From positions 1 to 40,603 of IMG/VR virus record IMGVR_UViG_3300038802_000018: 40,603 bases of DNA; one strand, given 5' to 3'. Of the stretch, positions 1 through 32,259 are shown one piece after another. Numbering within the stretch: the first letter of the stretch is position 1; every line of letters starts with the position of its first letter. The notes below the pieces were generated by a model. That model was not told the origin of the DNA. It searched no databases and saw only the letters and a list, made by a program, of their open reading frames with translations. A program made the position numbers and the translations under genes. The stretch is from a virus.

Positions 1-60
1 GGCGGAAACGTGTTTTGTGAGTCGCAATCCATTACTCGACTCAAGAAACACAAACTGCAT
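1..60 (-). CDS. Partial unknown protein (N-terminal 20 residues)
   Basis: An ATG on the minus strand at 60-58 follows a good Shine-Dalgarno (GGAGG, 5 bases before the ATG) and opens a frame that runs without a stop to the window edge. It begins MQFVFLESSNG. It lies downstream of the csrA-like gene in the same direction, with one copy of the 15-bp palindrome between them, so it is probably the next gene of the leftward early operon. Twenty residues are too few to assign a family. Confidence 0.6.
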   Translation of the reverse strand, partial: MQFVFLESSNGLRLTKHVSA

Positions 61-105: not shown

Positions 106-291
106 CTAAACGATGTTGTACTTACGTTGAAAGACTTCTTCCCTGTCGATATCAACGTCATCGCTGGCTTCAAATAATAGGCGAGCTGAAGAGCGTCTCG
201 CTTCGGTCAACTTCACGAGGCAGATAATCTCGCCGTCTTTGTGAATGACAACGTTCTCGTCTTCCTTGCGATGTAGCACCAGTCTGCTCAT
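106..291 (-). CDS. csrA: CsrA/RsmA-family RNA-binding regulator
   Basis: This 61-residue protein has the length and pattern of CsrA. The N-terminal strand LVLHRKEDENVVI matches the family pattern (L-LTR-GE-I-I), and the C-terminus DVDIDREEVFQR matches the family D-V--HREEIY-R. R50 is the equivalent of the RNA-contacting Arg44 of bacterial CsrA. CsrA dimers bind GGA motifs in RNA hairpin loops and usually block ribosome binding. The middle strands (residues 20-40) are more diverged and richer in Arg than in host proteins. The ATG overlaps the stop of the DNA polymerase gene (ATGA), so the two are translationally coupled. A phage copy could reset host carbon metabolism or regulate phage messages; that part is inference. 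Confidence 0.88.
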   Translation of the reverse strand: MSRLVLHRKEDENVVIHKDGEIICLVKLTEARRSSARLLFEASDDVDIDREEVFQRKYNIV

Positions 292-2114
292 TTACTGTAC
301 GCCTTGTCGTAGCCGCCTTCTGCGGCAAGTGGTAAGTCTGGAGCCCAGTCAGGTGGTATGCACATGAGCTCAATAATCTTGTCCATCACTTTGTTAGCAT
401 CTGTTTCGGGAGCGATGCAAACGATTTCGTCATGAACCGTCAGTACAACCGAACCTCCCAGGTCCTGGAGATATGTATGTATGCGCATGAGCCCGTCAGT
501 AATTACGATGCGGGACAATGCTTGCACTATGTTCTCTGTAATTTTTCCGCCCCAAGTAAACTCTGGTTTACCGCGGAAGCTGTACTTGTACTGACTGCCT
601 AGTATCTGCAGGTCTTTGTATGCAAGTCGCATTCCGTTGGGTAGTCCGATTGCATTTTCATGTATTGAAAACACTCGGTACTGAAGCGGCGGATTGTATT
701 TCTGTTTGTCGAGAGTCCACATCAGCATGTTGGTTGCACGTGACCAGAACTCCGGGATACCTGGGTATGTAGTTCTGTATGTACTGACAACGTCATGTGC
801 TTCTTCGCTTGTGAACTCCATCGGTGGGCCCATAGCCCCAGACTTCAATGTAGCTTGGAACTTGTTAGCACCCATGCCGTAGCCAAGACCCAAGATAGCC
901 GTCTTACCTACAAAACGTTCCGTCGGATCGTCATGCTTGTTTATAGGTCGTCCGTATACTTGACTGGCAAACTGACTGTAGACATCGTCATTACGTGCAA
1001 ACGCCTGGAGTAGATCCTGTTCGTCTGCAAGCCATGCAAGCATGCGTGCTTCGATGTTGCTGAGGTCAGCTACATACACTAACCTGCCTTCCGGGGCGAC
1101 CAACGACTTACGTATCTCGCTGCCTCTAGGTAGGTTTTGCATGTTGATTTTTTCTGTACCGCCAAAGCGGCCGGTGTGTGCTGCATAATATCGAAGCGGT
1201 ACGCTGAGTGTTCCGTCTTCGTTACATGCATCCAAGAATCGCTGCGCGCGTGTCTCTGCAATACGTGATTTGACGACGACTCGTGCATCCCAGATGTGCT
1301 GCAGCTCGGGATGTTTGTTGCAGAGCTGCTTGTAGCCTGCATCGTTCTTGCCGAGTGCCGGTATCTGTTCGCCTGTAGACGGAGACTTCTTGGTTGGTGC
1401 GTTGATGTTGTGTTCGTTCTTTAGATATTCGGTAAATTGTTGGTTGCTTGATAATATTTTTCTGTCGATTCCTGATGCTTCGATTAGTTGTTCTGCGTTC
1501 GTTATCTGTTGATCTCGGTACGTGGTCAGTCGTTCACGGTCCACGATCAGCTTTGGCTCGACAAACATCCGTGTTGTTAGATTGATGAGGTCGAGTTCTT
1601 GTTGTGGATAGTCATGCCACAGTTCTTCGAAGATGGCGTGTGTTAGGTCCACGTCTTGTATGCAGTAGCCTGCAATCTGTTCTTCGATGTCCGGTGGTAA
1701 ATCCACAATACCTTTGGCATTAACGAGCTCGTCGCCTTTACGCATGCCGGGATCGTTGGGGAACACACGTTCTGCTACGTCGGCAAGCCGTGCTGATTGA
1801 CCTGGCCACAAGCCTCGGGCCATGGCAGCCGTATCGTAGTAGTAGGCAGGTGTTACTCCGTAGTATTGAGTAAGAATGTATGCGTCAAACATAGCGTTAT
1901 GCGCAATCATCTTAACGGATCCCCAAGGTATGGAGTGTATGTAGTCCTCGACTTCATCTTCGCCATACCAGGTGGCGGTATCGTCTTCAACATAGCGCAC
2001 GCCGACGCCCCAGACTTTGAAGTCAGGGTGTCGTACGTACTCCATAGTTGTCATTTTAGTGAGGCTTAGCTTCGTGTCGAAGTAAGTCTCGAAGTCAATA
2101 CTTAATAGTGTCAT
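288..2114 (-). CDS. Family A DNA polymerase with 3'-5' exonuclease domain
   Basis: About 608 residues from the ATG at 2114, which has GGAAG about 8 bases upstream. The frame is open further upstream, but that part overlaps the preceding gene. The first residues carry the proofreading DEDD motif (IDFET), followed by HNAMFDAY and a third exonuclease motif near YCIQDVDLTHAIF. The C-terminal half has polymerase motif A (YVADLSNIEARMLAW), motif B (GKTAILGLGYGMGANKF) and motif C (VLTVHDEIV, catalytic Asp in HDE). No 5'-3' nuclease domain is present, as in T7-type replicative enzymes. It is expected to be the phage replicase. The stop overlaps csrA by ATGA. Confidence 0.95.
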   Translation of the reverse strand: MTLLSIDFETYFDTKLSLTKMTTMEYVRHPDFKVWGVGVRYVEDDTATWYGEDEVEDYIHSIPWGSVKMIAHNAMFDAYILTQYYGVTPAYYYDTAAMARGLWPGQSARLADVAERVFPNDPGMRKGDELVNAKGIVDLPPDIEEQIAGYCIQDVDLTHAIFEELWHDYPQQELDLINLTTRMFVEPKLIVDRERLTTYRDQQITNAEQLIEASGIDRKILSSNQQFTEYLKNEHNINAPTKKSPSTGEQIPALGKNDAGYKQLCNKHPELQHIWDARVVVKSRIAETRAQRFLDACNEDGTLSVPLRYYAAHTGRFGGTEKINMQNLPRGSEIRKSLVAPEGRLVYVADLSNIEARMLAWLADEQDLLQAFARNDDVYSQFASQVYGRPINKHDDPTERFVGKTAILGLGYGMGANKFQATLKSGAMGPPMEFTSEEAHDVVSTYRTTYPGIPEFWSRATNMLMWTLDKQKYNPPLQYRVFSIHENAIGLPNGMRLAYKDLQILGSQYKYSFRGKPEFTWGGKITENIVQALSRIVITDGLMRIHTYLQDLGGSVVLTVHDEIVCIAPETDANKVMDKIIELMCIPPDWAPDLPLAAEGGYDKAYSK

Positions 2115-2355
2115 CTTCAAGGTCTTCCAGTCTGTTGTCGTAGAGCTGCTCGAGATGAAGCACGTGTTCAATTTCGCGCGCAGTACTTACTTGTTGTTCT
2201 ATTTGTTTGAAGTTTTCTTCAAGCTCTTTGGCAAGACTGGGTTGACGGGTCTTGAGCCACATATAGGTGTAGCTGTATAGCTCGTATTGATTCGGGTTTT
2301 GGCGTCGCTCTTTTTCTTCCTGGCGAGCGAGGTCCATATATTCATCAGCTTTCAT
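2095..2355 (-). CDS. Small unknown protein, charged, helical
   Basis: 86 residues, starting MKADEYMDLARQEE, with a strong AGGAGGAAGTA leader before the ATG at 2355. It is rich in Glu, Gln, Arg and Leu, with a likely coiled coil in the second half (residues about 40-80). It overlaps the DNA polymerase start by 20 bases, so both are read from one message. No family recognised. The position just before the polymerase would suit a replication accessory protein, but nothing in the sequence shows it. Confidence 0.75.
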   Translation of the reverse strand: MKADEYMDLARQEEKERRQNPNQYELYSYTYMWLKTRQPSLAKELEENFKQIEQQVSTAREIEHVLHLEQLYDNRLEDLEDDTIKY

Positions 2356-2600: not shown

Positions 2601-2774
2601 CTAAAATAATGGTTCGTAAATTTCTCCACGATCTAATTTTTCTTTGAGGCGACGGTACTCATCCCACAAATGTTCGGATGGACTGCCGTCCCAGTCAGCA
2701 TCACGTGCTCTGTCGTATGCTTTTTCTACAGCTTCGGTGATAGATATAAGACGTGCTTTTACTTGGCCAGTCAT
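2601..2774 (-). CDS. Small unknown protein, 57 residues
   Basis: The ATG at 2774 overlaps the TGA of the vWA metallopeptidase gene (ATGA), a strong sign of translational coupling. The frame encodes 57 residues beginning MTGQVKARLISITEAVEKA and ending in a TAG at 2601. It is charged and helical with two Trp residues (ADWDGSPSEHLWDEY). No family recognised. It could serve the MoxR/vWA cluster just upstream, judged only from the overlap. Confidence 0.7.
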   Translation of the reverse strand: MTGQVKARLISITEAVEKAYDRARDADWDGSPSEHLWDEYRRLKEKLDRGEIYEPLF

Positions 2775-3892
2775 GATGTTAACTCCATGTAAATTGTTTC
2801 ACCCCAAGGGGCCTGAAGATGTTTGTCAGTACTAACCCATAGCACAGGATAGTGAGGTTCCTCACCAAAATCGTCAGAGCCGAGGTCGGTGAGATACACA
2901 CAAGCTTCAATGTCTTCTTGAAGTTCATCGATTTTTTCAAAGGCTGGAGAGAAAGCAGTGCCTCCACGACCTGTGAAAGTGGGCGGTTCTTCCCAGAAGT
3001 TTTCTGCTTCAGACCACTCAAAGATATCGTTGACTTGTGCATCACAGCCGATGCAAATAATTTTGGTTGGTTGGGTTTCTTTGGCGACAGCAACGATCTC
3101 GGACCAGAACTGATGTAGTTCTGCATCGGAGACTGATCCGCTGGTGTCAACACAGATGGCAATCGTGCCGCATGATTCGTTGTACATGGATGGTAGATAC
3201 TCGTCCTCGCTTATGTATGCGCGGTTTGGTTTACGCCATGTGTATTCATCACGGCTTGTGTTGGTAAAGAAGGGCCAGAGAACCTGACGCCAGTCGACTA
3301 GTGGTTGGAGGACATCACCGATAAGAGTCTCAATGTCACTCGGTAGTTTGCCTTGTGCTTTGGCAAGCTCAGCTGCTTGATTGATGGCAACCTGCCAATC
3401 AGATTCCAATGCTGCGCCTGAGTTGCCTTCAACACTGTCGGTGCCTGCATCCTGTACAAGACCCCATGCAGGCATCTCAATTGTTTCTGCATCGTCTAGA
3501 AGTTTTGCATACAGTGACTCGGTGGTGTCGTCATCGTACTCACCTTCTCTGTCGACAAGCCCACCTTCGGGAAGAACAAACCCAGCGTTGAGAAGATGGC
3601 CGTTGATTTTGTAATCACCGGCTACATTCCATACGGTTGGGTGTCGGTCTTGTCGTCGAGTCATGTGCTGCAGCACGCAGTGCATAACTTCGTGTGCAAC
3701 AAGACCTACTGTTTCGTGGATTGATAGTTTTTCTACAAAGCTGGGGTTGTACAACAGACGGGTGCCGTCGGTTGCAGCAGTAGCAATGTCTTCAGTTGCT
3801 ACAATTTTAAGGCGCAAAGCCAAGGTGCCGAAGAACGGTTGTTCCATCAGCAACTTGGCGCGTGCCTTGAGAAACTTGTTCTCAACAGACAT
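2771..3892 (-). CDS. vWA-domain metallopeptidase-like protein (DUF2201 type)
   Basis: 373 residues. The N-terminal half has a zinc-protease motif, H67-E-V-M-H71 (VAHEVMHCVLQH), followed by a region like putative metallopeptidases of the DUF2201 family. The C-terminal half is a von Willebrand A-like domain with a MIDAS motif, DTSGS at 249-253, and a later conserved Gly-rich GRGGTAFSPAF and YLTDLGSDD. Proteins of this layout are normally encoded beside a MoxR-family AAA+ ATPase, and one lies two genes upstream (4604-5614). The ATPase probably remodels or loads this protein or its target. In phages the role is unknown; takeover of a host complex or late virion maturation are both possible. Confidence 0.85.
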   Translation of the reverse strand: MSVENKFLKARAKLLMEQPFFGTLALRLKIVATEDIATAATDGTRLLYNPSFVEKLSIHETVGLVAHEVMHCVLQHMTRRQDRHPTVWNVAGDYKINGHLLNAGFVLPEGGLVDREGEYDDDTTESLYAKLLDDAETIEMPAWGLVQDAGTDSVEGNSGAALESDWQVAINQAAELAKAQGKLPSDIETLIGDVLQPLVDWRQVLWPFFTNTSRDEYTWRKPNRAYISEDEYLPSMYNESCGTIAICVDTSGSVSDAELHQFWSEIVAVAKETQPTKIICIGCDAQVNDIFEWSEAENFWEEPPTFTGRGGTAFSPAFEKIDELQEDIEACVYLTDLGSDDFGEEPHYPVLWVSTDKHLQAPWGETIYMELTS

Positions 3893-3893
3893 A

Positions 3894-4586
3894 TCAGTCT
3901 CCTAGTAAAGAAGAGGTAAGAAGCACTTGGTTGGCTGCATCAGCATCAAACTCTGATAAGTCACGAACTTTGTCCGCATCGATTTTGCGTGTGACTTTGG
4001 TGTGCAGCTTTTGGATAACGTCAGCTGGCAACAGTTTTTCTGCAGCAGGCCATACTTCCAGTAGTTGTTTCACAGTGTTGCACTGTGAAATCACACCATC
4101 GATTGATTTAGAAAAGGTCCTGAACTTTTCTTCCCACGCTTCAGCTGTATCAACAGCATGCGCAAGTTTTGTATGCAGTGCTTCACGAATACTTGCATCA
4201 AACATATCGATGTGCATGGTGTAGGTTAGATACCCACCACCAGCTGGTACACTGATTGGTGTAGGTAGCTCGATGTCAATGCGTGCGGTGTCACCGCTGT
4301 TTTCATACTCGGCATGTTTTTTGATGCCGATGATTGCAATATCAGTAACGTCTTTCTTTTGAAATCCGTTGATCTCTCTTGCAAGGGTACCGTCTGCTGT
4401 CTGCAGGTGTATTGAAGAAAGAAGCGTGTCGACATCTTTAAACAATGGAACATTGTTCAGAGCGTTTCGAACTTCTGATATAAGTTCGGGAGATTGATTG
4501 GGCTCAGGGTTTGAGACCCTGTATTTTTGCTCAGCTGTTTTGAGCAGCTCACGTGATAGTTGTTGTGATAGACGTACAGTAGCCAT
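3894..4586 (-). CDS. Unknown protein between MoxR ATPase and vWA gene
   Basis: About 230 residues from the ATG at 4586 (MATVRLSQQLSRELL), which has AAAGGA upstream; the frame is open for another 17 codons without a good ribosome site. It is mostly helical with a beta-rich middle (residues about 90-135, IDIELPTPISVPAGGG). The end at 3894 is one base from the vWA start, so three genes form one tight unit. Such middle genes in MoxR/vWA clusters often encode the substrate or adaptor, so I infer a partner role. The opening pattern faintly recalls phage Nmad5-type proteins, but I would not rely on it. Confidence 0.8.
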   Translation of the reverse strand: MATVRLSQQLSRELLKTAEQKYRVSNPEPNQSPELISEVRNALNNVPLFKDVDTLLSSIHLQTADGTLAREINGFQKKDVTDIAIIGIKKHAEYENSGDTARIDIELPTPISVPAGGGYLTYTMHIDMFDASIREALHTKLAHAVDTAEAWEEKFRTFSKSIDGVISQCNTVKQLLEVWPAAEKLLPADVIQKLHTKVTRKIDADKVRDLSEFDADAANQVLLTSSLLGD

Positions 4587-4603
4587 GATTAGAATCCTTT
4601 CTG

Positions 4604-5614
4604 TTAGATAAGTACGTTGGCGTTGTCTTGCGTCCACTTCTGGAACGCTGCTGATTTGACCAAGTCGCGGTCTTTTGCGAGTGAGTCACGGACAAGAACA
4701 ACCTGATACTCAGAGGGCATACGTTTTGCGTAAGCCATGATGTCTTTGAAGTTGTTGTCGTCAGCTCGGGCAGCAAGTGCACCAGATACAGCAAACAAAA
4801 TTGACGGATCGTCAGGGACGCTTGCTGAATGTGGTGATGCCAATAGCTTTTCAAGGTCAGGCATCTTGTCGGCCGTTTGCTTGAACGCAATGAACTCACC
4901 AGCTGGTCCATCGCCAATGATTGAAGCCACACCATAGAACTCGTCGTCAGGTGTGCCGCCCATAAAAGGTAACTTACGGTCAACCATTTCCCAGGCACGC
5001 GGTGTCGGGAATGCATTCTCACGAGAGTCGAGTGAATGCAAAAGTGTCGGCCGGTAACGCAGAAATGAAATAATAGTGGGACTAATATTCCTTTGCATAG
5101 CCCAAGCAGCCCAGTCATCGATGTTGGCCTCGATTTCATAGTGAGCGAAACGGTTCTTCACTGGTGTTGGCATCTCGTGTACAGCTGCACGATCAATGCT
5201 TCGGTTGCCCGCAGCAATGATTGCTGTGCCGGCAGGCAGTGTGTATGTACCAATCTTCTTGTCGAGGATTAGTTGAAGCAGTGCATTCTGTGTAGCTTTA
5301 GGTGCATTGGGCAACTCGTCGACGAGCAGCACGACATTACCTGAGTATGTGGATTCAGGATAATCTTCGGGGACACCGTACCTGGTCTTGTATGTACCGT
5401 CGTCTTGCTCGACAACTTTGAGTCCGCCGCGTACGTCGACTGGGTCAAACAAGTTGGCCCGCAGCTCGAATAGTTTGGCGTTCAAGTCCTCTGCAATCTG
5501 ATAAGCAATCTGGGACTTACCAATACCCGGTGGTCCCCATACCATGGTTGGAATGTTTGCACGTGCGTTGGCACGCAGTTCATTGGATAGTTGTGATGGT
5601 CGAATTGTGCGCAT
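4604..5614 (-). CDS. MoxR-family AAA+ ATPase
   Basis: 336 residues. Walker A is GPPGIGKS at 27-34, Walker B LLVDELPNA with D99-E100, and a sensor-1-like segment is IIAAGNRSIDRA. The region after Walker A carries the MoxR-type substrate loop (DPVDVRGGLKV). MoxR ATPases act as chaperones that insert cofactors or change the shape of partner proteins, and they typically work with vWA-domain proteins such as the one at 2771-3892. The gene begins after a 14-base gap from the 5629-6159 gene and is the first of the three-gene cluster. Confidence 0.92.
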   Translation of the reverse strand: MRTIRPSQLSNELRANARANIPTMVWGPPGIGKSQIAYQIAEDLNAKLFELRANLFDPVDVRGGLKVVEQDDGTYKTRYGVPEDYPESTYSGNVVLLVDELPNAPKATQNALLQLILDKKIGTYTLPAGTAIIAAGNRSIDRAAVHEMPTPVKNRFAHYEIEANIDDWAAWAMQRNISPTIISFLRYRPTLLHSLDSRENAFPTPRAWEMVDRKLPFMGGTPDDEFYGVASIIGDGPAGEFIAFKQTADKMPDLEKLLASPHSASVPDDPSILFAVSGALAARADDNNFKDIMAYAKRMPSEYQVVLVRDSLAKDRDLVKSAAFQKWTQDNANVLI

Positions 5615-10470: not shown

Positions 10471-10949
10471 GAACCGTGGTCCGTGGTCCATGGGTGTGTA
10501 CCACTGTGTACCACTGTGTACCAGCTGTGTACCACTTACGAATCAGGGTTAAGTGTTTGATGTGTATAGATAAAAGGGATGTGTACCACTGTGTACCAGT
10601 TTTAGGGGGGGTCTTTTGATGTTGGAAAAACAAAAACACAAAAGCGTTTTCTAAAACTAAACCGTGGCAATGTGGTACACATGGTACACACGGTCCGTGA
10701 AACGTGATTAGTTGTTCGTGGTCAAGGGTTTAGGTGTGTACCAGAATGTGTACCAAGTGTGTACCACAAACGGTGTATTCGCGGTACACAAGGGACGACG
10801 GACGTGGGACAGAGGACCGTTGAGAACGAACCGAGAACAGTTGTTCGTGGTCATTTGACCGTGGTTCAATGCCCGCAAATAGATGTTCGATGCCCGCAGC
10901 AAGCACGCAAGCCCGCAAGCAAGCAAGCGCCCCCCGCAGAAGGAAGGGG
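10471..10949. other. Origin-like non-coding region with iterons
   Basis: No supported gene lies here. The 8-mer GTGTACCA occurs exactly nine times on the plus strand (starting at 10496, 10506, 10516, 10527, 10581, 10591, 10736, 10748, 10759) and twice inverted (10673-10680, 10682-10689); a near-copy is at 10783. Spacing inside clusters is 10-12 bases, one helical turn. An A/T-rich stretch with a TTTTAG / CTAAAA inverted pair (10598-10660) lies between clusters, like a melting region. CGTGGTC motifs flank it. The right end (10870-10940) has several GCCCGCA and GCAAGC copies. This is the layout of an iteron replication origin, but it could also be a multi-site operator. Confidence 0.6.

Positions 10950-24993: not shown

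Positions 24994-32259
<7,266 letters not shown>

Follow-up and report, generated by a model that had tools for sequence, protein, structure and literature searches.

The window analysed here is a 40.6-kb virus contig, IMG/VR record IMGVR_UViG_3300038802_000018, taken at its full length of 40,603 nucleotides and probably a fragment. It encodes a homologue of the bacterial global regulator CsrA within its replication operon, directly after the DNA polymerase gene (pol), and phages that share this gene pair carry an excess of predicted RNA hairpins whose loops hold the GGA of the Shine-Dalgarno (SD) sequence. On balance, we lean towards the view that this phage-adapted CsrA regulates translation autogenously, acting on early and replication genes of the phage itself. 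Given that csrA lies behind pol and that the SDs of replication genes are often found in small hairpins of the type bound by CsrA, this protein probably controls phage translation rather than host metabolism. Both roles had been proposed in an earlier note on this DNA. The enrichment of GGA-loop hairpins at the phages' own start sites favours the former, and no evidence was found for the steering of host metabolism.

The csrA gene and its product

The csrA gene is located at positions 106 to 291, as given in the earlier note, and lies on the minus strand, which that note had not stated. Its product is a protein of 61 amino acids (MSRLVLHRKEDENVVIHKDGEIICLVKLTEARRSSARLLFEASDDVDIDREEVFQRKYNIV). 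The note had called this protein a CsrA homologue with the RNA-contact arginine and had suggested a profile search, which bears the assignment out: PF02599 (CsrA) is matched with an E-value of 1.2e-8 and 35.2 bits, above the curated cut-off of 27, and is the sole Pfam match, while the CsrA-like families of PHROG give weak matches. All 41 aligned relatives of the protein likewise match PF02599. Residues L4, R8 and R50 align with the canonical L4, R6 and R44 (E. coli numbering), and published evidence indicates the importance of L4 and R44 for RNA contact (PMC7652899). The equivalents of these two, L4 and R50, do not vary across the 41 aligned copies. At the R8 position, four copies (L022, L030, L031 and L032) carry a leucine, giving RLVLTLK.

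Compared with host CsrA, the phage protein has two more residues at the N terminus and approximately four extra residues mid-protein. The central strands have diverged, as the earlier note remarked, and a shift in target choice is plausible. Two further contigs hold csrA orthologues at the same position that are 84% identical to the window copy. Between the window gene and its nearest relative omega is 0.15, and the sequences indicate that csrA is under purifying selection. With the profile matches of its relatives, this makes the gene more than a chance finding.

An AlphaFold2 monomer model was built from the 41-row alignment (pLDDT 88.5), with strands at residues 13-18, 21-31 and 36-42 and a helix at 51-58. 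In this monomer the two outer CsrA strands, beta-1 and beta-5, are unpaired, as expected for a strand-swapped dimer. The 13 best Foldseek matches to the model are all CsrA, RsmA or RsmE proteins, the first 12 with a probability of 1.0 but with E-values of 0.007 or worse. As modelled, the protein has the five-strand and helix fold of CsrA.

Organization of the replication operon

The third gene of the operon, csrA, follows a family-A DNA polymerase with a 3'-5' exonuclease (608 amino acids; positions 288 to 2114, minus strand; DNA_pol_A, E 1.9e-35; phrog_17, E 4.3e-95). The pol stop codon TGA (290-288) and the csrA start codon ATG (291-289) have bases in common; thus, the ATGA overlap described previously is present, but the two genes are not fused as that description had it. 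The likely start of pol is the ATG at 2114, although the open frame extends to a TTG at 2171; alignments to most relatives begin at residue 20. This ATG lies inside the end of the first gene of the operon, which encodes 86 amino acids (2095 to 2355, minus strand; 52 leaders of its family are known in relatives) and overlaps the start of pol by 20 nucleotides, so that three genes overlap in a chain. After csrA comes the start of a primase/helicase gene (1 to 60, minus strand), of which the first 20 amino acids are encoded in the window and the remainder lies beyond its edge. In relatives, the intact orthologue has about 830 amino acids and follows csrA. This gene order, in which a hairpin-gated first gene is followed by an overlapping pol and an overlapping csrA, suggests autogenous control.

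Several other features of the window were recorded. Positions 2771 to 5614 hold in a row genes for a MoxR-like AAA ATPase (4604 to 5614, minus strand; Pfam and PHROG matches), an Nmad5-like protein associated with nucleotide modification, and a DUF2201 metallopeptidase/VWA protein. Upstream of pol, Rhizobium phage RHph_TM3_14A likewise has an ATPase gene and one of the DUF2201 type. The structural region includes a single open reading frame of 2421 amino acids (24994 to 32259) for which a Pfam search gave no convincing match. A gene-poor stretch at 10495 to 10766 contains 11 exact copies of TGTGTACCA, nine forward and two reverse, where 0.35 are expected; this iteron-like array is a possible origin or regulator site. 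No Rfam match to an antagonist sRNA of the CsrB/RsmZ type, which not all CsrA members require, was found within the window.

Distribution and ancestry of the pol-csrA gene pair

Scans with the polymerase and with CsrA yielded 153 distinct contigs, including the window. By script, csrA was placed directly after pol in 134 of the 153. One further contig (L253), scored at first as lacking csrA, proved on reading of its DNA by eye to contain the gene, and 11 contigs offer no usable context, giving 135 of 142. The two genes mostly overlap by 4 or 11 nucleotides or are separated by a gap of a few nucleotides. Among the seven contigs without csrA after pol, six have distant polymerases (at most 39% identity) and one (L080) has a polymerase at 53%. 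In L080, pol adjoins the primase gene with no csrA between them, and the hairpin is missing from both leaders.

The phages with the pol-csrA pair are mostly marine. The terminase, portal and polymerase proteins of the window put it close to podovirus-like phages of 55-65 kb such as KPP25, phiA008 and RHph_TM3_14A, at 30-53% identity, and csrA is absent from these phages. In a phylogenetic tree, which rests on only 65 alignment columns, the pol-linked CsrA proteins all group together, and a branch with 100/100 support separates them from bacterial and ordinary phage CsrA. Bacterial genomes scanned with patterns from the CsrA alignment gave no close relative of the pol-linked gene, and a query of isolated phages with E. 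coli CsrA did not reach the pol-linked lineage. On these sequence comparisons, csrA seems to have been acquired once, long ago, and inherited since, rather than being a recent cargo gene. Three contigs of this phage group (L143, L144 and L145) are filed inside bacterial metagenome-assembled genomes assigned to Neomarinimicrobiota, Planctomycetaceae and Rhodospirillaceae, and these are probably misbinned.

GGA-loop hairpins at Shine-Dalgarno sites

A scan of phage leaders for GGA-loop hairpins had also been proposed. For each called gene with an SD GGA, we asked whether the GGA lies in a loop of 4-8 nucleotides closed by a stem of 4 bp or more, and compared the counts with shuffled flanks in which the SD was fixed, a null that keeps base content but not dinucleotide content. 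The pol-csrA group has 381 distinct leaders, of which 112 form such a hairpin where 66.1 are expected (z 6.4); these counts come from a simple gene caller and from related leaders that are only partly independent. Tallied over 204 protein families, the excess amounts to 0.116 (t 4.25). The hairpin rate in clade 1 is 31% against 17% for flank shuffles, or about two-fold, and clade 2, which was separate from the set-up of the test, gives 36.4% against 19.4% (120 families, t 3.4). In the same group, no excess is seen for start-codon loops or for internal GGAs.

Corresponding counts were made for phages of other kinds. Relatives without csrA have 29 of 164 leaders against 22.6 expected, with no such excess, and other phages without csrA have 25 of 188 against 33.6. 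Among marine phages that lack csrA, the cobaviruses show no excess (10.2% against 13.8% expected), and the cyanopodoviruses have 26.2% against 18.9%, but with a t of only 0.6 by family. Nine phages with an ordinary csrA gene also show no excess (32 against 36.4). An apparent avoidance of GGA hairpins in this last set, seen with three phages (4 of 80 against 12.1), was gone with nine. The idea that the hairpins are confined to the neighbourhood of pol is likewise unsupported, as the excess is 0.114 near pol and 0.092 far from it. The leaders of the window alone, about 10 of 33 against 18% expected, form too small a set and are not significant.

Because every SD contains GGA, the presence of this triplet in a loop is not independent proof of CsrA binding. 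The A at position -2 that is required in SELEX sites occurs in 32 of 136 hairpin leaders and is less frequent there than in the remaining leaders (243 of 497); the CAGGA repeats of CsrB likewise lack the A at -2 (PMC7652899).

Individual leader hairpins

The candidate CsrA operator of the window operon is a predicted leader RNA hairpin, ACUUC-AGGAG-GAAGU, at positions 2357 to 2371 on the minus strand (fold z -2.3). Its loop holds the SD GGA, and it ends 1 nucleotide before the AUG of the 86-aa gene. The signal is strongest at this position: for the gene before pol, 22 of 30 distinct leaders reach a stem of 4 bp or more, where 5.7 are expected (z 7.9). The leader of one relative (L006), AACUAC-AGGAG-GUAGUU, differs from the window stem by compensatory change. 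In clade 2, a 70-aa gene before or near pol has the hairpin in 7 of 7 leaders against 1.3 expected. Clade 2 has the hairpin UUUAAUUA-A(C)GGAG-UAAUUAAA, with compensatory and wobble changes, and also AGUUC-AAGGAG-GAACU.

Hairpins also precede the primase gene after csrA in 24 of 45 leaders against 8.7 expected (z 6.0), although the window copy has a stem of 3 bp only. A highly conserved leader element, GCUCUGUAGGAGGAGC, is found between csrA and the primase start in clade 1 (L024, L025 and others) and is absent from clade 2. For the MoxR ATPase gene, 16 of 28 leaders in relatives form the hairpin against 5.5 expected (z 5.1), but it is absent in the window.

Pairing was examined in the leader upstream of pol, using a 67-aa family whose 31 distinct leaders were aligned on the GGA, with pairing not used for selection. 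Their consensus is CAYC-NNGGAG-GRUG. The third pair (9-18) occurs as CG 16 times, UA 10, GC 1 and UG 3, and covariation is 0.296 against 0.160 for shuffled alignments (0 of 500) and is destroyed by sliding the pairing partner. The second pair is broken in 12 of the 31 rows, and therefore the stem is not universal in this family.

A 17-bp DNA dyad

A second element, the 17-bp dyad TATTAGYNNNRCTAATA, lies upstream of the operon (positions 2379 to 2395) and between csrA and the next gene (77 to 93), with one mismatch and without assigned strand in each case. The window contains 14 sites with at most two mismatches where 1.27 are expected, many of them just upstream of gene starts on both strands. 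They are located at 77, 2379, 5071, 9867, 12679, 16582, 18287, 24609, 32260, 34951, 36433, 37711, 39251 and 40248. The dyad is also found in many related phages and probably serves a phage regulator as an operator or promoter element. As a candidate CsrA RNA hairpin, the dyad TATTAGNNNNNCTAATA was rejected, because its positions 7 and 11 vary independently (of 108, TA 30, CG 25, CA 25 and TG 21), as in a DNA operator, and because some relatives that carry csrA lack it.

Proposed function and alternative explanations

A circuit consistent with these observations can be outlined for the operon of the 86-aa gene, pol, csrA and primase, whose first cistron is predicted to present its SD GGA in a short hairpin loop. 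Ribosomes would start at the 86-aa gene, and the overlapping starts and stops would couple translation into pol and then into csrA. As the CsrA dimer accumulates, it would bind the GGA loops and block the ribosome, so that the operon and the other hairpin-led phage genes would be turned down, in the manner of a timer or balancer like RegA of phage T4. The established model of CsrA repression, in which the dimer occupies the GGA loop and the SD (PMC7652899), fits the phage leaders. We infer that CsrA is the ligand of the hairpins, that binding represses, that the protein dimerises and that translation is coupled along the operon. The further proposal, that this phage lineage turned an acquired CsrA into a regulator of its own replication operon and spread GGA-loop operators over its start sites, strikes us as an evenly balanced proposition.

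Campa et al. 2021 put forward a different role for an RsmA encoded by phages, and the protein encoded here might similarly act mainly on host mRNAs, mimicking or overriding host CsrA in the control of metabolism, motility or CRISPR-Cas. The RNA-contact residues that the phage protein keeps would suit such a role, as would the finding that host CsrA/RsmA represses CRISPR-Cas in Serratia and has homologues in many phages (PMC8450108), and the rewiring of its host by a plasmid-encoded RsmQ (PMC9928087). However, the phage copies in the former study are close to host CsrA, whereas the pol-linked proteins branch separately (100/100), and the scan of bacterial genomes gave nothing close to them. Moreover, csrA keeps a fixed place beside the polymerase gene and is not scattered as cargo, and the phages' own start sites are rich in GGA hairpins, unlike those of the nine phages with ordinary csrA. 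We therefore regard action mainly on host mRNAs as unlikely.

The hairpins might instead be real operators that are read by the polymerase itself or by host CsrA, with phage CsrA competing or having some other job. T4 DNA polymerase provides a precedent, as an operator hairpin allows it to repress translation of its own mRNA (PMC3014915). This reading, which we find quite unlikely, draws on the scarcity of A at -2 in hairpin leaders and on the csrA-less L080 fragment, which retains weak 4-bp hairpins before two genes, the MoxR ATPase gene and the next one. Yet the stems differ and occur at many genes with the GGA loop alone in common, which suits a reader of GGA loops better than a polymerase with one operator, and the excess is not seen in marine phages without csrA, although CsrA may be present in their hosts. 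It is also conceivable, though very improbable, that the hairpins merely expose the SD or tune translation without a protein, and that csrA is a little-used passenger. The stems are indeed short (4-8 bp), and SD accessibility is a general need, but other phages show no such excess, and csrA is under purifying selection (omega 0.15) and is carried by almost all members of the group. Autogenous control by phage CsrA remains the reading we favour, and the group offers a concrete and testable case, with named hairpins, named genes and a linked candidate ligand.

Comparison with known systems

The protein resembles bacterial CsrA, RsmA and RsmE (PF02599; PDB 2BTI, 1VPZ and 2JPP) in its profile, length, fold and equivalents of L4 and R44, and its proposed targets are likewise GGA-in-loop sites over the SD. 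It differs from the bacterial proteins in being phage-borne within a replication operon, in its separate tree branch and in its extra N-terminal and central residues, and most of the phage loops read AGGA(G) and lack the A that SELEX sites have at -2. Phage csrA genes have already been widely reported (PMC7366521, PMC8450108, PMC12038007). The CsrA/RsmA proteins of F116, Vibrio 219E41.2 and PTXU04 (gp28) belong to the same family (PMC8450108, PMC7366521, PMC11879866), and knockdown of the PTXU04 copy resulted in smaller plaques (PMC11879866). Unlike the pol-linked lineage, the ordinary phage copies that we examined resemble host CsrA, and their phages have no excess of GGA hairpins. In the literature searched, we found no report that links a phage CsrA to pol or that describes hairpins of the CsrA type at the genes of the phage itself. 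Thus, phage CsrA itself is known, and what is new is the setting: a conserved pol-csrA pair, a separate branch and GGA-loop hairpins.

Two regulators of phage T4 provide the closest parallels. The autogenous control of T4 DNA polymerase (gp43) is alike in that a leader hairpin operator governs translation of the polymerase, but gp43 is not a homologue, the polymerase itself is the repressor, and there is a single operator (PMC3014915). RegA represses translation and is encoded within the core cluster of T4 replication genes (PMC3014915), and the phage csrA gene likewise lies among replication genes. It is a functional parallel rather than a homologue: CsrA is the only Pfam match of the 61-aa protein, and the RegA fold differs (PMC3014915). 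RegA sites are A+U-rich, unstructured and located over the AUG, whereas the sites proposed for phage CsrA are GGA hairpins. If our preferred reading is correct, these phages would have re-used a bacterial global regulator as a dedicated timer in a RegA-like circuit, and they would represent a second solution to the problem that T4 handles with RegA.
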